Assembly (NCBI GenBank): GCA_016125385.1
Contig: WGLV01000030.1
Coordinates: forward strand, 1 to 38,785
Origin: a bacterium
GTDB lineage: Bacteria > Hinthialibacterota > Hinthialibacteria > Hinthialibacterales > Hinthialibacteraceae
Direction of reading: 5' to 3'
DNA: 38,785 nucleotides
The notes beneath the pieces were generated by a model. That model was given only the letters and a program-made list of their open reading frames with translations. It was not told the DNA's origin and did not search any database. How positions within the stretch are numbered: the first letter of the stretch is position 1; every line of letters begins with the position of its first letter. This document shows positions 15,071 to 22,180 of the stretch, piece after piece. The position numbers and the translations under genes were made by a program.

Positions 15071-15844
15071 TTACTTCGGTTTCCGGCAGACGAAATGGAT
15101 GCGTTCGCATTTGGCCGACACAGGTTTTTCCGTCATGTTGAAAAACGTGCCGAGCATCTCAAACCCCGCGTCCTGCAGGCGATCTTTGAGCCAACTGTTG
15201 GGGTAAACCCGCTGGCGGTGCACTTCCACAAATTTTTCATAGCCCCGATCGCCGCGTTTGAAGATGCTTACCTTTGAAGCGCAAATCTTGTTGACGATGT
15301 CGTACTCATTTTCCCAGATGTACGAAGCGTCTTCGAAATTTTCCGCGAAGGTGTATCCCGCGAAATTATGCATCAGGTTGTATTCGGTGGTGACGTCGAA
15401 GATATACCCGCCGCCGGGGCGTAACAGCGCGAAGACGTCTTCAAAAGCGCGAGCGACCGAGGTCTCATCGAGCAGATAGTTCAGGCTGTCGTACAGACAG
15501 ATCGCCAGATCGTACCCCGGTTCAAGTCTCAGCGCGGCCAGGTCGTCCATCGACCCGTGCAGTAACTGGGCTTTGACGCGCGTTTCGGTGAGCCGCTTCC
15601 GGGCGATGGCCAGCATGCCGGGCGAAATGTCGACGCCGGTCACACGATACCCGCGCTCGGCCAGGTTGGCCGTCATGACGCCGGTTCCGCAGGCGATTTC
15701 GAGAACGGACGTGACGTTGATTTTGAATTTTTTCGCCAGGCGGATGATATGTTCAGCCCACGAGTCATAATCGACGTCGCGCATGACGTCGTCGTAAATG
15801 CCGGCGAAGGCGGAATAGATTTCGTTTTCGGATGTTTCGGTCAC
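15071..15844 (-). CDS. Class I SAM-dependent methyltransferase
   Basis: A 257-residue protein starting with GTG at 15844, overlapping the stop of the upstream glycosyltransferase as GTGA, so the two are coupled. SAM-binding motif I is VLEIACGTGVMTANLAERG (about residues 42-60), motif II VTGVDISPGML, and the post-I acidic motif GYDLAICLYDSLNYLLD. The pattern YSAFAGIYDDVMRDVDYDSW at the start and the C-terminal beta strands fit the small-molecule or sugar methyltransferases often found beside glycosyltransferases. Substrate unknown; given its partner, O-methylation of a glycan or glycolipid is the simplest idea. Confidence 0.85.
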   Translation of the reverse strand: MTETSENEIYSAFAGIYDDVMRDVDYDSWAEHIIRLAKKFKINVTSVLEIACGTGVMTANLAERGYRVTGVDISPGMLAIARKRLTETRVKAQLLHGSMDDLAALRLEPGYDLAICLYDSLNYLLDETSVARAFEDVFALLRPGGGYIFDVTTEYNLMHNFAGYTFAENFEDASYIWENEYDIVNKICASKVSIFKRGDRGYEKFVEVHRQRVYPNSWLKDRLQDAGFEMLGTFFNMTEKPVSAKCERIHFVCRKPK

Positions 15845-17667
15845 GAAGAATTGGTCTCCATCATCAGGCGCTGATACACGAGCAGAAGTTCATCAAGATG
15901 ATCGCCAATCGATTTTACGGCGGGAATCGTCTCGCGCAAAGCGGCGAGGCGCCGGGGTTCGGCGATCAGGCCTTCGATGACGCGCCGCAGGCTGGCGGCG
16001 TCGCGGTGTTGAAACGTGAGTCCTCCGCCGTTTCTGACCTGTTCAACCATTCCGCCCACATCGGCGGTGATGACGGGAACTCTCATCTGAAATGCTTCAT
16101 GCACGGTCATCGGTGAGTTTTCCCACCAGATCGATGGGACCACGATGCAATCCAGTTCGCTCAGAATGCCGTACACCTCCGAGGGATCGTACTTGCCGTG
16201 AAATTCGACGGCGGGACCGGCCAGCGATCGCAACCGCGCGGGGTAATCTTCATAGCCGTCATATCCGGGGAAGAACCCATACACCCGCAGCCGCGCCCGG
16301 GATGGATCGATTTGGCGAAACGCCTCCAGCAGCAGATCGACTCCCTTGGAAGGAATCCACGTACCGATATAGCCGAAACGAATCGGATCGTGATACGCCC
16401 GCTCGCGTGGAGCGGGGGCGGGGGGAAAGCCATTGTCGGAAAACAGGATTTTGTCTTGCGGCAATCCGAACTGAATGAAAAAGCGCCGCAGAAATTCCGA
16501 TGGCGAGATAAAGACGTCCACTTCGTCGAACACGCGCCGCACCCGGTTGGTCCGGTGAGCGATTCCCTCATGCGCTTGAGGGGACAAATGGACCAGCAGA
16601 TCGGCGGCGTTTTCAAGCAGAGCTTTGATGCGGCGGCGCGATGCGGCGGCTTCGAGATCGATTTCGCTGTTTGGGGATTCCATTTGCATGGGCAGGACGC
16701 GTGGATTCAACCACCCCGCCGAGCAAAACTGAGGATCGCCCGTCGAAGCGACGGTTCGCAGTGTAAGCGGGCGTTGTTTCGCATCCTCTTCCAGCGTGAA
16801 CTCGACCGGACGCCAACCGCGATCGGCGGGTTCGTGTTTCGGGTCGAGCGTGTCATCGAACAGGCGTTCATCACCGCGCCATACTTCGAAACGAACGCCG
16901 CCGCCGGGCTTGTCGTATACCTCCGGGTGAAGCGCGACGGCGGAGACAAAGCGCGCTTTGCGGCTGAATCTCGCCGGATAGACCGCCTGGGCGGGCGGGT
17001 GCATCAATAACACCGGTCCACCGCCCAGAGGGAACTCGGTTCGTGAAACGTAGTGTGGATCGGGCGCCGTGATGTTGGCGCGGCGTGGTTGAAGACAATC
17101 GATCAGCGGGCGCTCTTTACTCGCGGGCTGAATCACACGGAGAACGCGTTCGGCCAATCCGCGCCAGCGGCCCCGAACCAGTTGCGGCGCCAGGCAGGCG
17201 CGGCAGCGCATGGGCGAAGGCCCGCCGCAGCAGGAGAGATCGCGCCGCAGGAGCTGTCCGCGCTGACACAGCAGCCAGTAGTCGTGCAACGTCATCACGA
17301 CGCGGCAGCCCGCCGCGCGCGCTTCAGCCGGCAGAGTCAACGACAGGTTGGTGAGGTGATGAAAGTGGACGATATCCGCGCGTTGTTCACGCAGCCAACA
17401 GCCAAAACGCGCGCCCAGAACCGGATTGTGATAGATGTCATGAAAACGATTGACGAAACGGTAGGTCTGGTTGATGCGCGAGGCCGGTACGCCCTCGTAT
17501 TCATCGGACTGGATCGTGTATTCATCCAGCGCGGCGTCGGAAAAACGGTAAAACACCACCGCTTCGTGACCGCGCCGGATCAGTTCTTTCGCCATGTTCA
17601 GGACGCAGAGCTCCGACCCGGCGTAGCTGAAGGGAGGGAAGGTATGGTTGACGAATACGATTTTCAT
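15841..17667 (-). CDS. GT4-family glycosyltransferase with inserted beta-sandwich-like domain
   Basis: A 608-residue protein, about 200 residues longer than a usual GT4. Residues 1-190 form the N-terminal GT-B domain (MKIVFVNHTFPPFSYAGSEL, then DIVHFHHLTNLSLTLP and MTLHDYWLLC) and include CCGGPSPMRCRACL, a cysteine cluster seen in some GT4 enzymes. Residues about 205-325 do not belong to the fold: ARFVSAVALHPEVY, GGVRFEVWRGDERLFDDTLD, ADRGWRPVEFTL and SAGWLNPRVL are the rhythm of a carbohydrate-binding-like beta sandwich. The C-terminal GT-B domain resumes near 330 and carries GYIGTWIPSKGVDLLLEAF and WWENSPMTVHEAFQMRVP, the E-x7-E region. The ATG at 17667 is preferred over an in-frame TTG at 17682. 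It leads the operon with the methyltransferase and lhr. Confidence 0.85.
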   Translation of the reverse strand: MKIVFVNHTFPPFSYAGSELCVLNMAKELIRRGHEAVVFYRFSDAALDEYTIQSDEYEGVPASRINQTYRFVNRFHDIYHNPVLGARFGCWLREQRADIVHFHHLTNLSLTLPAEARAAGCRVVMTLHDYWLLCQRGQLLRRDLSCCGGPSPMRCRACLAPQLVRGRWRGLAERVLRVIQPASKERPLIDCLQPRRANITAPDPHYVSRTEFPLGGGPVLLMHPPAQAVYPARFSRKARFVSAVALHPEVYDKPGGGVRFEVWRGDERLFDDTLDPKHEPADRGWRPVEFTLEEDAKQRPLTLRTVASTGDPQFCSAGWLNPRVLPMQMESPNSEIDLEAAASRRRIKALLENAADLLVHLSPQAHEGIAHRTNRVRRVFDEVDVFISPSEFLRRFFIQFGLPQDKILFSDNGFPPAPAPRERAYHDPIRFGYIGTWIPSKGVDLLLEAFRQIDPSRARLRVYGFFPGYDGYEDYPARLRSLAGPAVEFHGKYDPSEVYGILSELDCIVVPSIWWENSPMTVHEAFQMRVPVITADVGGMVEQVRNGGGLTFQHRDAASLRRVIEGLIAEPRRLAALRETIPAVKSIGDHLDELLLVYQRLMMETNSS

Positions 17668-17751: not shown

Positions 17752-17781
17752 AAAAAGCCCGGCGCGTTCGAGCCGGGCTTT
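17752..17781 (-). terminator. Rho-independent terminator of the NtrC-like regulator gene
   Basis: Perfect 10-base arms AAAGCCCGGC and GCCGGGCTTT flank an 8-base loop; on the minus strand the stem runs into TTTTTC. It starts 27 bases after the regulator's stop codon and separates it from the GT4 operon. Confidence 0.82.
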
Positions 17782-17808
17782 GTGTGACCAATCGAGGTTG
17801 CGGCGATC

Positions 17809-19203
17809 TCAGGCGACTTCGACTTCGAACAGTTTCTGGCTCTCGTAAATCTGTAACTTGCGGTGAAGCGTCGCGCGGTTAATGTCGAGAATCGCGGCGG
17901 CTTTGACCTTGTTGTTTCCGGTGGCTTCCATCACTTTGAGAATATAACGCCGCTCGATCTCGCTCATGGTGGGCAGGTCATCTTCCGATGAACTGATGAA
18001 CAAGCTGCCCACCTCATCATGAAACTGTTTGGGCAGGTGAATCGGTTCGATGGCGTTTTTCCCCGCCATCTGCAAGGCGTATGTCAAGACGTTTTCCAGT
18101 TCGCGCAAATTTCCCGGCCAGGCGTGTTCCATCAGCGCTTTCATCGTTTCTTCGGTGATGCGGATGGGTTCTTCGCCCCGCTCACGGCTCAATCGCGCCA
18201 GCATTTCCCTCGCCAGAATGGGGATATCTTCAATCCGGCGGCGTAACGCGGGCAGGGCGACTGTGAAACGGTTTAGCAAAAAGAACAGTTCTTCTGAAAA
18301 CTCACCGGCGGCGGCGAGTTCGCCCAGTTGCTGGCTGGTTCCCGCGAAGACGCGCACGTCCGACTTTCGGGTCCCCTTACCCTCGGGCGATTTATAAGCG
18401 CCGTTTTCGATAAATCGGAGCAGCTTGCCCTGTACTTCGGGGGCGGCCGCTGAAATATCATCGAGATACAGCGTTCCACCTGACGCCTGCTCGGCCAGAC
18501 AGGGATTTTTATCTTTTTCGCCGCGTCCAAACAACTCGCCCGCCAGTTCTTCACCTTCAAACGCGCGGCAGTTGATGGATAGAAACGGCCCGTGACGGCG
18601 GACGCTGTGTTCGTGTATTAATTGCGCAAGATGTTCCTTGCCCGAGCCCGCCGGACCGGTGAACAGGATCGCGTCATCGCGCCGCGCCAGCATGCGCGCG
18701 AGGCGGATCACGTCGATCATTTCCGGGGATTTGACTACGATGGATCCAAAGCGCTCCATCATCGATTCGGTGGTTTCGTATCGCGCCAGGCGATTCTTCA
18801 GCAGGTTGGCGTCGAGTACGCGTTCGAGAAGAATCGCGATTTCTTCGGTGACGGCGGGGATGGTGAGAAAATAGCCCTGCAATGTTCTCGCCCACTCGGC
18901 GGCTTCTTCGGTTTTGCCTTCGGTGGCGATGACGAGAATTTCGCTGCCGAGGTTCTCAATGGAAGGGTTTTGTTTCTTCCGTTCTTCGTGGTAGTCTTCG
19001 CATTGTGAGAGTTCGATCACCAACAACTTGGCTGGGTCGCGAGACAGGCTGAATGACAGCTCTTTCAGGTTATTCGACTGGGTGATCCGGCAGCCGGTCG
19101 CTCCCAGATTTTCAAGGAAAGGGCGTTCTGACTTTCCTCGATAACACAAAACGGCGATATGAACGCCATTAAGATGTTCGTATGGATTCTGGTTTGCATT
19201 CAT
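17809..19203 (-). CDS. NtrC-architecture regulator lacking sigma-54 activation motifs
   Basis: A 464-residue protein. Residues 13-130 have the look of a receiver-like domain, but the position of the phosphorylated Asp seems to hold Glu (LLVIELSQ). Residues 150-390 are a bacterial enhancer-binding AAA+ domain: Walker A GPAGSGKE at 183-190, Walker B as LYLDD rather than LFLDE at 245-249, sensor II WPGNLRELEN at 362-371. The GAFTGA loop that contacts sigma-54 is missing: ELFGRGEKDKNP jumps straight to CLAEQASGG. The arginine-finger segment, normally FREDLYYRLN, reads FSEELFFLLN at 302-311, so both arginines are lost. The Fis-type helix-turn-helix at the end (NNKVKAAAILDINRATLHRK) is intact. It probably binds DNA as a repressor or sigma-70-type regulator, as TyrR does, and may hardly hydrolyse ATP. 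It has its own terminator. Confidence 0.85.
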   Translation of the reverse strand: MNANQNPYEHLNGVHIAVLCYRGKSERPFLENLGATGCRITQSNNLKELSFSLSRDPAKLLVIELSQCEDYHEERKKQNPSIENLGSEILVIATEGKTEEAAEWARTLQGYFLTIPAVTEEIAILLERVLDANLLKNRLARYETTESMMERFGSIVVKSPEMIDVIRLARMLARRDDAILFTGPAGSGKEHLAQLIHEHSVRRHGPFLSINCRAFEGEELAGELFGRGEKDKNPCLAEQASGGTLYLDDISAAAPEVQGKLLRFIENGAYKSPEGKGTRKSDVRVFAGTSQQLGELAAAGEFSEELFFLLNRFTVALPALRRRIEDIPILAREMLARLSRERGEEPIRITEETMKALMEHAWPGNLRELENVLTYALQMAGKNAIEPIHLPKQFHDEVGSLFISSSEDDLPTMSEIERRYILKVMEATGNNKVKAAAILDINRATLHRKLQIYESQKLFEVEVA

Positions 19204-19216
19204 TCGCTTTGTCCCC

Positions 19217-19252
19217 CGTTCGTAACGCTGTCGAAATGTACCGTTACAAACG
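19217..19252. promoter_or_regulatory. Large inverted repeat upstream of the regulator gene (possible operator)
   Basis: Arms CGTTCGTAACG and CGTTACAAACG (10 of 11 pair) are separated by 14 bases and lie 14 to 49 bases before the regulator's ATG. A dimer of the Fis-type protein binding here would fit autoregulation. A weak promoter (TTGAAT, 16 bases, TGTAAC) reading toward the regulator overlaps one arm. Confidence 0.5.
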
Positions 19253-19487
19253 ATTCATTGCCTGATTCAAGATTTGAACGACAATAACACTGAAATTGTA
19301 AATATTATCTATCGGGAGAGCCAATATCCTGGCAAAGATCGTACCATTCTCAATCCTGAATGGGAAGACAAAACTGTTGATCGCGCTAAAAATCGCAACC
19401 AGCCACTTTTTTTGAAACTATTTATTTTGTCCAAGCACGGTTTTGTAATCGTCTCGATCCCAATAACGCAATAAAACTTGCCAATCG

Positions 19488-19493
19488 TATAAT
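19488..19493 (+). promoter_or_regulatory. -10 box for the GT2-tlyA-nadK operon
   Basis: A perfect TATAAT 45 bases before the GT2 ATG. I find no good -35 at 16-18 bases, so an activator might be needed. Confidence 0.4.
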
Positions 19494-19538
19494 GAAAATG
19501 ATAGATCGAATCCGGCCTGAATTTTGAACCAATATAGC

Positions 19539-20495
19539 ATGAATGAACAGCAAAAGAACCCCAAAGTGAGCGTTGTAGTCCCAATATTGAACGGCGGAAA
19601 TGATCTGCTTCGTCTGTTGGATCGGCTGGCCAGTCAATCTCTGGCCAGCGACATGGAAATTATCCTCGTCGACTCAGGCTCACGTGACGATAGTTTACAT
19701 TATGCCCGCCAAAGGCAGTGTAACATAATTGAAATTCCCGCGCGTGCATTTAATCATGGAGCCACCCGCAATCTGGGCGCCTCCAAAGCGCACGGCGAAT
19801 TTCTGTTTTTCTTTACACAGGATGCGCTTCCCCAGCGAAACGATTATTGCGAAACCATGATCGACTCGCTGGAAGCGAACCAGGCTGACGCGGGATACGC
19901 GCGGCAGATTCCCCGTCCGGAGGCGGGGCCTCTCGTGCGGCGCGACGTGAGCGCCTGGCTCAGCGGGGTGGATGAGCGCCGAGTGGTTCGAGCCGGGCGG
20001 CTGGATGATTTTTGCGGCATGACGCCGTATGACCGCTACGCCCGGTGCGTATTCGATAACGTCGCCAGCGTGATCCGGCGCGCCGCGTGGAAGGCGATTC
20101 CGTTTCCACACGCGCCATACGGAGAAGATATCGAATGGGGACTGCGAGCGTTGAGTAACGGGATGACGCTCGTTTACGAACCGGATGCGGCGGTGATCCA
20201 TTCTCACGACCGGCCTCCTGACTATACATGGAAGCGTACGTTAATCGATCATTACCGGCTGAATGAACTGTTCGGGCTGCGCACCGTTCCAACCCGGCGG
20301 GCGGCGATTCGGGGGTGGATGTCGACGACGCGCCGCGACTGGGGCTATCTGCTATCTCACCCTCCCTACGATTCGACCTGGCGGCGCGATTTCATAAACG
20401 CGCCCCGCCACGCCTGGGCGGCGGCGTGGGGGCAGTTTCACGGCGCCCGAATGGCCGCGCGCGGAGAGATGATGCGCGGCCTGCGTGGAGTGTGA
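19539..20495 (+). CDS. GT2-family glycosyltransferase (rhamnosyltransferase-like)
   Basis: A 318-residue protein with the GT-A fold: KVSVVVPILNGGNDLLRLL at the start, ILVDSGSRDDS as the nucleotide-sugar-binding segment, ARAFNHGATRNLGA and FFFTQDALPQ, the last carrying the Asp of the metal site. GEDIEWGLRALSNG later corresponds to the ED catalytic-base region. These match bacterial rhamnosyl- or related transferases of GT2 that decorate O-antigen or other surface polymers. I chose the ATG at 19539; a TTG five codons earlier is possible, and neither has a strong ribosome site. It lies 6 bases before tlyA, forming an operon with two housekeeping genes. Confidence 0.85.
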   Translation: MNEQQKNPKVSVVVPILNGGNDLLRLLDRLASQSLASDMEIILVDSGSRDDSLHYARQRQCNIIEIPARAFNHGATRNLGASKAHGEFLFFFTQDALPQRNDYCETMIDSLEANQADAGYARQIPRPEAGPLVRRDVSAWLSGVDERRVVRAGRLDDFCGMTPYDRYARCVFDNVASVIRRAAWKAIPFPHAPYGEDIEWGLRALSNGMTLVYEPDAAVIHSHDRPPDYTWKRTLIDHYRLNELFGLRTVPTRRAAIRGWMSTTRRDWGYLLSHPPYDSTWRRDFINAPRHAWAAAWGQFHGARMAARGEMMRGLRGV

Positions 20496-20501
20496 CGCGG
20501 T

Positions 20502-21305
20502 ATGAGCGAAAAAGCCCGTCTTGACGTGGTGTTGGTTGAACGCTCGCTGGCCGCCAGCCGCGATGAAGCACAACGGTTGATTCGCGCCGGCGTGGTATTG
20601 ATCGACGAGATCGTGCATGACAAGCCCGGCGTTAAAGTCGACGTTGAATCGCCGATCCGCGTCGCGCGGCGCGAAACGCCGTTCGCCAGCCGGGGCGGGT
20701 TCAAGCTGCAACGCGCGCTGGACGTCTTTGAGATCGACCCGGCGGAGCTGACCGCCGCCGATTTCGGCGCTTCGAACGGCGGGTTCACCGATTGTCTGCT
20801 GCAGCGCGGAGCGGCCCGGGTATACGCCATCGACGTGGGGCGCGGCCAGCTGGCGTACGCGCTGCAAACCGATCCCCGTGTGGTGGTGATGGACCGCACC
20901 AACTGCCGCTACGTCACGCGGGACGCGTTGGGCGAAGCGGTCGATCTGGTAGTGGGCGACCTGTCGTTCATCAGCGTGAAAAAACTGTTCGACGCCACGC
21001 AATCGGTGTTGAAACCCGGGGGGACGGCGGTGATGCTGATCAAGCCACAGTTTGAAATCGGCAAAGGGCGGGTGGGAAAGAACGGCGTTGTGCGACGCCG
21101 TGAAGACCATCACGAAGTGCTGGTTGATTGCTATGATTTCTACGTGGGGCGGTCATGGTCGGTCATTGGCGTGACCCCTTCGCCGATTGAAGGCAAATCG
21201 GGGAATGTTGAGTTTCTGTTTCACCTCGCGCCGCGTCCGGACCGAAGCGTTCCGCCCGAGGCGCTTGAATCCGCGGTGAATGAAGCGCATGAAAGGACTC
21301 CATGA
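20502..21305 (+). CDS. tlyA: TlyA-family rRNA 2'-O-methyltransferase
   Basis: A 267-residue protein. Residues 4-62 are an S4 RNA-binding domain (RLDVVLVERSLAASRDEAQ, VVLIDEIV). The rest is an FtsJ-like Rossmann methyltransferase: SRGGFKLQRALDVF, SAM motif DFGASNGGFTDCLLQRG, VYAIDVGRGQLAYAL, catalytic-region VGDLSFISVKKL and LIKPQFEIGKGRVGKNG. TlyA proteins methylate cytidines of 16S and/or 23S rRNA; several were first labelled hemolysins. Its stop overlaps the nadK start as ATGA, and the tlyA-nadK order is conserved in many bacteria. Confidence 0.93.
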   Translation: MSEKARLDVVLVERSLAASRDEAQRLIRAGVVLIDEIVHDKPGVKVDVESPIRVARRETPFASRGGFKLQRALDVFEIDPAELTAADFGASNGGFTDCLLQRGAARVYAIDVGRGQLAYALQTDPRVVVMDRTNCRYVTRDALGEAVDLVVGDLSFISVKKLFDATQSVLKPGGTAVMLIKPQFEIGKGRVGKNGVVRRREDHHEVLVDCYDFYVGRSWSVIGVTPSPIEGKSGNVEFLFHLAPRPDRSVPPEALESAVNEAHERTP

Positions 21306-22180
21306 ATCAGCCCGCGAAGATTGAATGCGCCGTTATTGTATATAACCCCGCCAAAGAAGGCGCGCTTGGCGCGGCCCGGAAGGCGTCCGAGGCGTTGCGC
21401 GCGCATGGCGTCCGCAGCCGTACGGTCGAGTACAGCCAGACCAATCACATTCACGACGCCGATCTCGCCGATGTGACACGCGAGTGTGGCGCCGTCATTG
21501 TGTTGGGAGGCGATGGAACCATTCTCGGCGTCGCGCGGCAGATCGCGTCTCAACCCAAACCGCTGCTCGGAATCAACCTGGGCGGCTTTGGATTTCTGAC
21601 CTCAAGCGCGCAGCATGAACTGGAGATCGCGATCGAGGCGCTGGCCACTGGCGATTATCGCGTAGTCAACCGCTTTTTTCTTCAGGCGCGGGTCGAACGT
21701 GATGATGGCGAGCCGTTTCAGTCGTACGCGTTGAACGAATCGCTGATTACGCTGGCGCAGCCCGGCCGCCTGCTTGAACTTTCGGTGGGCGAAGACGACC
21801 GCTCGGCGTTGACCTATCGCGCCGACGGCCTGATCATCTCCACGCCCACTGGATCGACCGGGCATTCGCTTTCGGCGGGCGGCCCCATTCTCGAACCAAA
21901 CCTGCCGGCGCTGATCGTGACGCCGGTCTCGCCGCATTCTCTTTTTAACCGGCCGCTGGTGGTGAACGGTGAACGTGAGCTGATCGTGCGTTTTTTACGG
22001 GGAGGCGACCGGTTGCTGTTAATTCTGGACGGGCAGATTCGCACGGAACTGTGTAGCACCGACGTGGTGCGGGTGAGGCGTTCTGAAAAATCGATCGCGA
22101 CTATCACGTTGCCGGACCGGAGTTTCTCGCAGGTTCTCCGCCTTAAATTCAACCTTGGTGAACGGCCGGGAAAGACTTAA
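21302..22180 (+). CDS. nadK: NAD kinase
   Basis: A 292-residue cytoplasmic enzyme that phosphorylates NAD+ to NADP+, using ATP or polyphosphate. The GGDG motif sits at 69-72 in VLGGDGTILGVAR, followed by LLGINLGGFGFLTS. The second signature, YRADGLIISTPTGSTGHSLS with SAGGPIL, is complete, as are the C-terminal strands (LILDGQ). Length is normal for the family. The start at 21302 is fixed by the 4-base overlap with tlyA. Its stop overlaps the stop of the convergent ABC permease at TTAA, with no terminator between. Confidence 0.95.
   Translation: MNQPAKIECAVIVYNPAKEGALGAARKASEALRAHGVRSRTVEYSQTNHIHDADLADVTRECGAVIVLGGDGTILGVARQIASQPKPLLGINLGGFGFLTSSAQHELEIAIEALATGDYRVVNRFFLQARVERDDGEPFQSYALNESLITLAQPGRLLELSVGEDDRSALTYRADGLIISTPTGSTGHSLSAGGPILEPNLPALIVTPVSPHSLFNRPLVVNGERELIVRFLRGGDRLLLILDGQIRTELCSTDVVRVRRSEKSIATITLPDRSFSQVLRLKFNLGERPGKT

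Follow-up and report, generated by a model that had tools for sequence, protein, structure and literature searches.

The window, that is, the whole stretch of DNA analysed here (38,785 nucleotides), carries a gene for a 464-residue regulator that resembles the enhancer-binding proteins (EBPs) of sigma-54. The gene belongs to a six-gene block found in the same form in five genera, in which NAD kinase, TlyA and a family-2 glycosyltransferase (GT2) are divergent from the regulator, a family-4 glycosyltransferase (GT4) and a methyltransferase. The block and its non-coding features are as follows:

15071 to 15844, minus strand: SAM methyltransferase, downstream of the regulator in 5/5 genomes
15841 to 17667, minus strand: GT4, directly downstream of the regulator in 5/5 genomes
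17752 to 17782, minus strand: intrinsic terminator 3' of the regulator, with a similar hairpin and T run in 4/5 genomes
17809 to 19203, minus strand: regulator gene, encoding a degenerate receiver, an AAA+ domain and a Fis-type helix-turn-helix (HTH) (from the ORF, Pfam and orthologs)
19204 to 19538, no strand: divergent intergenic region, the likeliest operator location
19539 to 20495, plus strand: GT2, divergent from the regulator in 5/5 genomes
20502 to 21305, plus strand: TlyA-type rRNA methyltransferase (S4 and FtsJ), part of the conserved block
21302 to 22180, plus strand: NAD kinase, part of the conserved block

The reading frame of GT2 is also open from a TTG at 19524. In the GT4 protein, approximately 290 residues that have no Pfam match separate the glycosyltransferase matches at the two termini. 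Since a terminator lies between the regulator and GT4 in 4/5 genomes, the two are neighbours rather than parts of one transcript, and the regulator is probably transcribed on its own. The intergenic regions of the five genomes were searched for a shared operator. Palindromic motif searches picked up nothing beyond terminator stems and further GC-rich segments, and there was no exact dyad that three of the five had in common.

The domains and motifs of the regulator were located as follows:

18814 to 19167, minus strand: pseudo-receiver, residues 13-130 (AlphaFold2 secondary structure and alignment)
18013 to 18741, minus strand: AAA+ domain and lid, residues 155-397 (Pfam PF00158, PF25601)
18634 to 18657, minus strand: Walker A GPAGSGKE, residues 183-190, intact (ortholog alignment)
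18502 to 18525, minus strand: RGEKDKNP, residues 227-234, replacing the L1 loop that bears GAFTGA (alignment)
18457 to 18465, minus strand: Walker B LDD, which is LDE in four orthologs (ortholog alignment)
18271 to 18300, minus strand: FSEELFFLLN, with S303 and L309 at both arginine-finger positions (ortholog and paralog alignment)
18097 to 18120, minus strand: sensor II WPGNLREL with R367, intact (ortholog and paralog alignment)
17851 to 17967, minus strand: Fis-type HTH, residues 413-451 (Pfam, ortholog alignment)

Pfam assigned residues 155-315 to Sigma54_activat, 321-397 to AAA_lid_14 and 413-451 to HTH_8; the same search gave no match for the first 130 residues. In the AlphaFold2 model (mean pLDDT 89.4, 29 aligned sequences), beta-strands and alpha-helices alternate at the N-terminus as they do in a receiver. 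The pTM of the model is only 0.57, so the relative placement of the domains is uncertain. The nearest solved structures found by Foldseek were NtrX, NtrC1, VpsR and FleQ.

The regulator has the AAA+ fold, Walker A, sensor II and Fis-type HTH of a canonical EBP, and according to the alignment the glutamate-switch Asn211 and the HTH are intact. No counterpart was found for the GAFTGA motif of the L1 loop or for the arginine fingers in FREDLYYRLN. The segment ELFG-RGEKDKNP-CLAEQASGGTLYLDD occupies positions 18537-18457 of the ORF. Between ELFG and the Walker B strand, the regulator reads RGEKDKNPCLAE, where canonical proteins have HEKGAFTGAxxxxxGxFE. The L1 region is about six residues shorter in the alignment and forms a short coil, not an extended L1, in the AlphaFold2 model. 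Neither the sequence nor the predicted structure contained a GAFTGA-like loop elsewhere. A sequence-only reading of this DNA had described the missing GAFTGA, the changes of FREDLYYRLN to FSEELFFLLN and of LDE to LDD, and an intact Walker A, sensor II and HTH, and it had proposed structure prediction as a check on the loop and the fingers. These descriptions hold for the ORF at 17809-19203 (minus strand), as alignment and Pfam matches indicate, and the predicted fold is confident and agrees with them. In PspF, replacement of the Walker B Glu by Asp (E108D) lowers ATPase activity (PMC4132715), and the second arginine (R299 of NtrC1, corresponding to R168 of PspF) touches the gamma-phosphate in trans (PMC7175178). 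Considering the motif losses together with these established roles in PspF and NtrC1, remodelling of sigma-54 by the regulator is very unlikely.

The receiver is degenerate as well. Glu had been suspected at the phospho-Asp position, and indeed E64 (19012-19014) lies at the end of the predicted strand beta-3, which shows that this placement is correct. In addition, C20 and Y21 replace the acidic pair and I115 replaces the Lys, so that the combination of phospho-Asp, acidic pair and Lys that marks a phosphorylatable response regulator is not present. Because the receiver is thus not phosphorylatable by the usual chemistry, the signal probably comes from a ligand or from a partner protein. Two cysteines, C38 and C68, are invariant across the five orthologs in this otherwise fast-changing domain and could possibly form a redox or metal site.

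A profile search of 386 genomes recovered exactly five members, which scored 830-895 bits and come from five genera within a single taxonomic family; two of these proteins (L031, L032) are found in public MAGs labelled Candidatus Omnitrophota. Among these genomes no ortholog was found beyond the one family; the next matches all stayed under 300 bits, led by a canonical EBP with GAFTGA at 296 bits. The four orthologs from the other genera are full-length and share 50-56% identity with the regulator, and dN/dS was approximately 0.13-0.18 in the three pairs with estimable dS, the remaining pairs being saturated. The regulator is therefore not an artefact of sequencing or drift. Mean pairwise identity among the five was highest in the HTH (82%), followed by the AAA+ domain (62%) and the receiver (37%), which suggests that DNA recognition is its most constrained function.

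GAFTGA, the first arginine finger (replaced by Ser), the acidic pair and the receiver Lys are missing in 5/5 orthologs. The elements for ATP binding are conserved. At residue 64, three of the orthologs have Asp and two have Glu. At the second finger, the window copy has Leu and G001 has His; the other three orthologs have Arg. The Walker B sequence LDD is private to the window copy, and the other 4/5 have LDE. These differences indicate that the losses did not occur simultaneously and that those private to the window copy are late. Given the second Arg in three orthologs and LDE in four, hydrolysis may persist in those proteins. The earlier statement that every element needed for sigma-54 has been lost thus applies to the window copy and is too strong for the family. 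Relatives with the same losses were found as far as GAFTGA and the first Arg are concerned, which four orthologs lack; LDD has no match among them, and loss of the second Arg recurs only in G001.

In a sixth genome of the family, G002, GT2 and GT4 are divergent and approximately 280 bases apart, with no regulator between them (G002:C83:27489-30520, L137), and tblastn detected no remnant of the gene in this genome. G002 hence offers a natural deletion for comparison. As the two glycosyltransferase genes persist there, the regulator is not essential to them. In a tree of GT4, GT2 and TlyA rooted with the sister family, G002 grouped with G003-G005 (71% support), which makes a loss in G002 likelier than two independent gains, though not certain. 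No ortholog of the regulator was found in the sister family, where the glycosyltransferases are present but separate from each other wherever the contigs allow a view. The absence from G002 and the larger number of substitutions at motif positions in the window copy than in its orthologs would fit a gene that is degenerating towards loss. We regard this as extremely improbable, since the protein is full-length in five genera, dN is well below dS, HTH identity is 82% and the position of the gene is unchanged.

The genome that carries the regulator also encodes RpoN, as well as GGDEF proteins. The regulator was aligned to the 21 other Sigma54_activat proteins of this genome (22 in total), and it alone lacks the complete set of GAFTGA, the two finger arginines and the Glu of Walker B. 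A recognisable GAFTGA-type loop was seen in 17/22; L018, L019, L023 and the regulator lack one, and L014 has the variant GAYTDA. Both finger arginines are present in nearly all 22, L021 lacking the first. With approximately 20 such paralogs and RpoN at hand, the regulator might form hetero-oligomers with a canonical paralog and tune the sigma-54 activity of the latter, as hetero-hexamers are known for HrpR/HrpS (PMC7057263). This is very improbable: HrpR and HrpS both contain the conserved motifs, no canonical EBP lies next to the regulator in the conserved block, and the regulator has a highly conserved HTH of its own. The proposal that the fold was kept and the protein repurposed for work without sigma-54 is well supported by the pLDDT of 89, the conserved losses, the presence of RpoN and canonical paralogs, and purifying selection. 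The departure from sigma-54 is almost certain.

Some of the paralogs have unusual features themselves. L019 (G000:C9:47266-47766) is an EBP-type protein without GAFTGA (ELFGQAHEPGQNGKTRRPG) that nevertheless keeps FRQDLYYRLS, and is a candidate for a TyrR-like, sigma-54-independent protein. In L018 and L023, the L1 loops are altered or deleted.

A survey of several thousand EBPs lists VpsR, DhaR, TyrR and HupR among proteins that left sigma-54 through changes in GAFTGA, and it states that EBPs altered in this motif depend on sigma-70, naming TyrR, DhaR and HupR as examples (PMC3162934). VpsR of Vibrio cholerae (PDB 7v2b) has the same receiver-AAA+-HTH order as the regulator, no GAFTGA, a shortened L1 and an intact Walker A. 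Its finger arginines are replaced (FNEELYHYIN), its Walker B reads LND and its receiver lacks the acidic pair and the Lys. A Vibrio VpsR (L151, 631 bits to 7v2b) has FDGDLYHYIN at the fingers, LND and no GAFTGA, and its receiver is likewise devoid of the acidic pair and the Lys. The regulator thus shares the motif set of VpsR, namely no GAFTGA, no fingers, a degenerate Walker B and a pseudo-receiver, and both are linked to polysaccharide or glycan genes. They share 33% identity over AAA+-HTH. VpsR keeps Asp59, where the regulator has E64. VpsR also binds c-di-GMP. The careful free tree did not join the regulator family and VpsR, and a tree constrained to unite them was not rejected (AU p 0.88). 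Judging by these motifs, VpsR is the closest known analogue in kind, and TyrR is not. VpsR is an activator of polysaccharide genes, and it makes the correct complex with the polymerase only when c-di-GMP is present (PMC11139211). A VpsR D59E variant is overactive in vivo (PMC7098655), which curiously recalls the Glu that the regulator has in place of the phospho-Asp.

TyrR of E. coli, which had been offered as the parallel, also lacks GAFTGA and is a sigma-70 regulator, but it keeps FREDLYYRLN, and thus both fingers, as well as LDE. The parallel is therefore loose, and VpsR and, in part, DhaR match better. TyrR has an ACT/PAS N-terminus and an amino-acid ligand. With its fingers lost and a receiver at its N-terminus, the regulator does not belong to the TyrR class.

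DhaR of E. coli has likewise lost L1 and has replaced fingers (FSRQLYYALH) and LEK at Walker B. It gave the best NCBIfam score of the regulator (NF008485), 211.8 bits, which is far below the equivalog cut-off of 551. The grouping of the regulator with DhaR in the tree (support 99/84) is unreliable, because it joins two long branches. DhaR has an N-terminal sensor region other than a receiver and works with Dha kinase subunits. FleQ of Pseudomonas aeruginosa, which also has an atypical receiver, gave the best whole-model superposition (8p53, TM 0.68). It has a sigma-70-dependent role at exopolysaccharide promoters (PMC10723142), but unlike the regulator, which lacks the motifs concerned, it is an ATPase and acts at sigma-54 flagellar promoters as well.

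We propose, with a probability of about 0.6, that the protein is a sigma-54-independent, ATP-binding and DNA-binding derivative of an EBP that acts with a sigma-70-type RNA polymerase to control the adjacent glycan genes. It would be a lineage-specific regulator that descended from a sigma-54 EBP and gave up the use of sigma-54. ATP would probably be bound at the Walker A/sensor II site and set the oligomeric state, and with the Arg fingers missing and Asp in Walker B its hydrolysis is predicted to be inefficient. The conserved block suggests that the HTH binds DNA near the divergent GT2, regulator and GT4 promoters, and the regulator would control the flanking glycosyltransferase genes as VpsR does in Vibrio cholerae.

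The same protein could also be an ATP-locked repressor that oligomerises on DNA, blocks or loops the divergent glycosyltransferase promoters and is released by a ligand. The window copy has neither the fingers nor the Walker B Glu and keeps Walker A, FleQ-FleN represses sigma-70 pel promoters in its ATP-bound, c-di-GMP-free form (PMC10723142), and the loss of a repressor from G002, where the glycosyltransferases are intact, is easier to accept than the loss of an activator. However, the second arginine in three orthologs and LDE in four indicate that locking is not a family trait, and the nearest analogue, VpsR, is an activator (PMC11139211). We therefore consider repression possible, though on the unlikely side.

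The preferred reading of a sigma-54-independent regulator of the glycan genes adds a syntenically fixed case to the few EBP-type regulators that left sigma-54. This family is undescribed within the literature searched, and the kind itself is already known from VpsR. Its five members capture intermediate states: all have lost the first finger, two also the second, and one of these two the Glu of Walker B as well. A more specific version, which we regard as unlikely, would make it a VpsR-type switch that evolved independently in an uncultivated lineage. Sigma-54 contact, fingers, phosphoacceptor and Walker B would then have been lost stepwise across the five genera, and the switch would serve one glycan locus only and detect a ligand with either its pseudo-receiver or its AAA+ domain. 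Automatic annotation would probably name this gene a 'sigma-54-dependent response regulator', and both parts of that name are likely to be wrong.

Finally, a -24/-12-like sigma-54 site (TGGTACG-N4-TTGCC, 19331-19347, minus strand) is located approximately 145 bases upstream of the regulator. No matching site was found upstream of the orthologs, so that among the five genomes only this one has it. It scores above 100/100 mononucleotide shuffles, and the window copy of the regulator may itself be under sigma-54 control.
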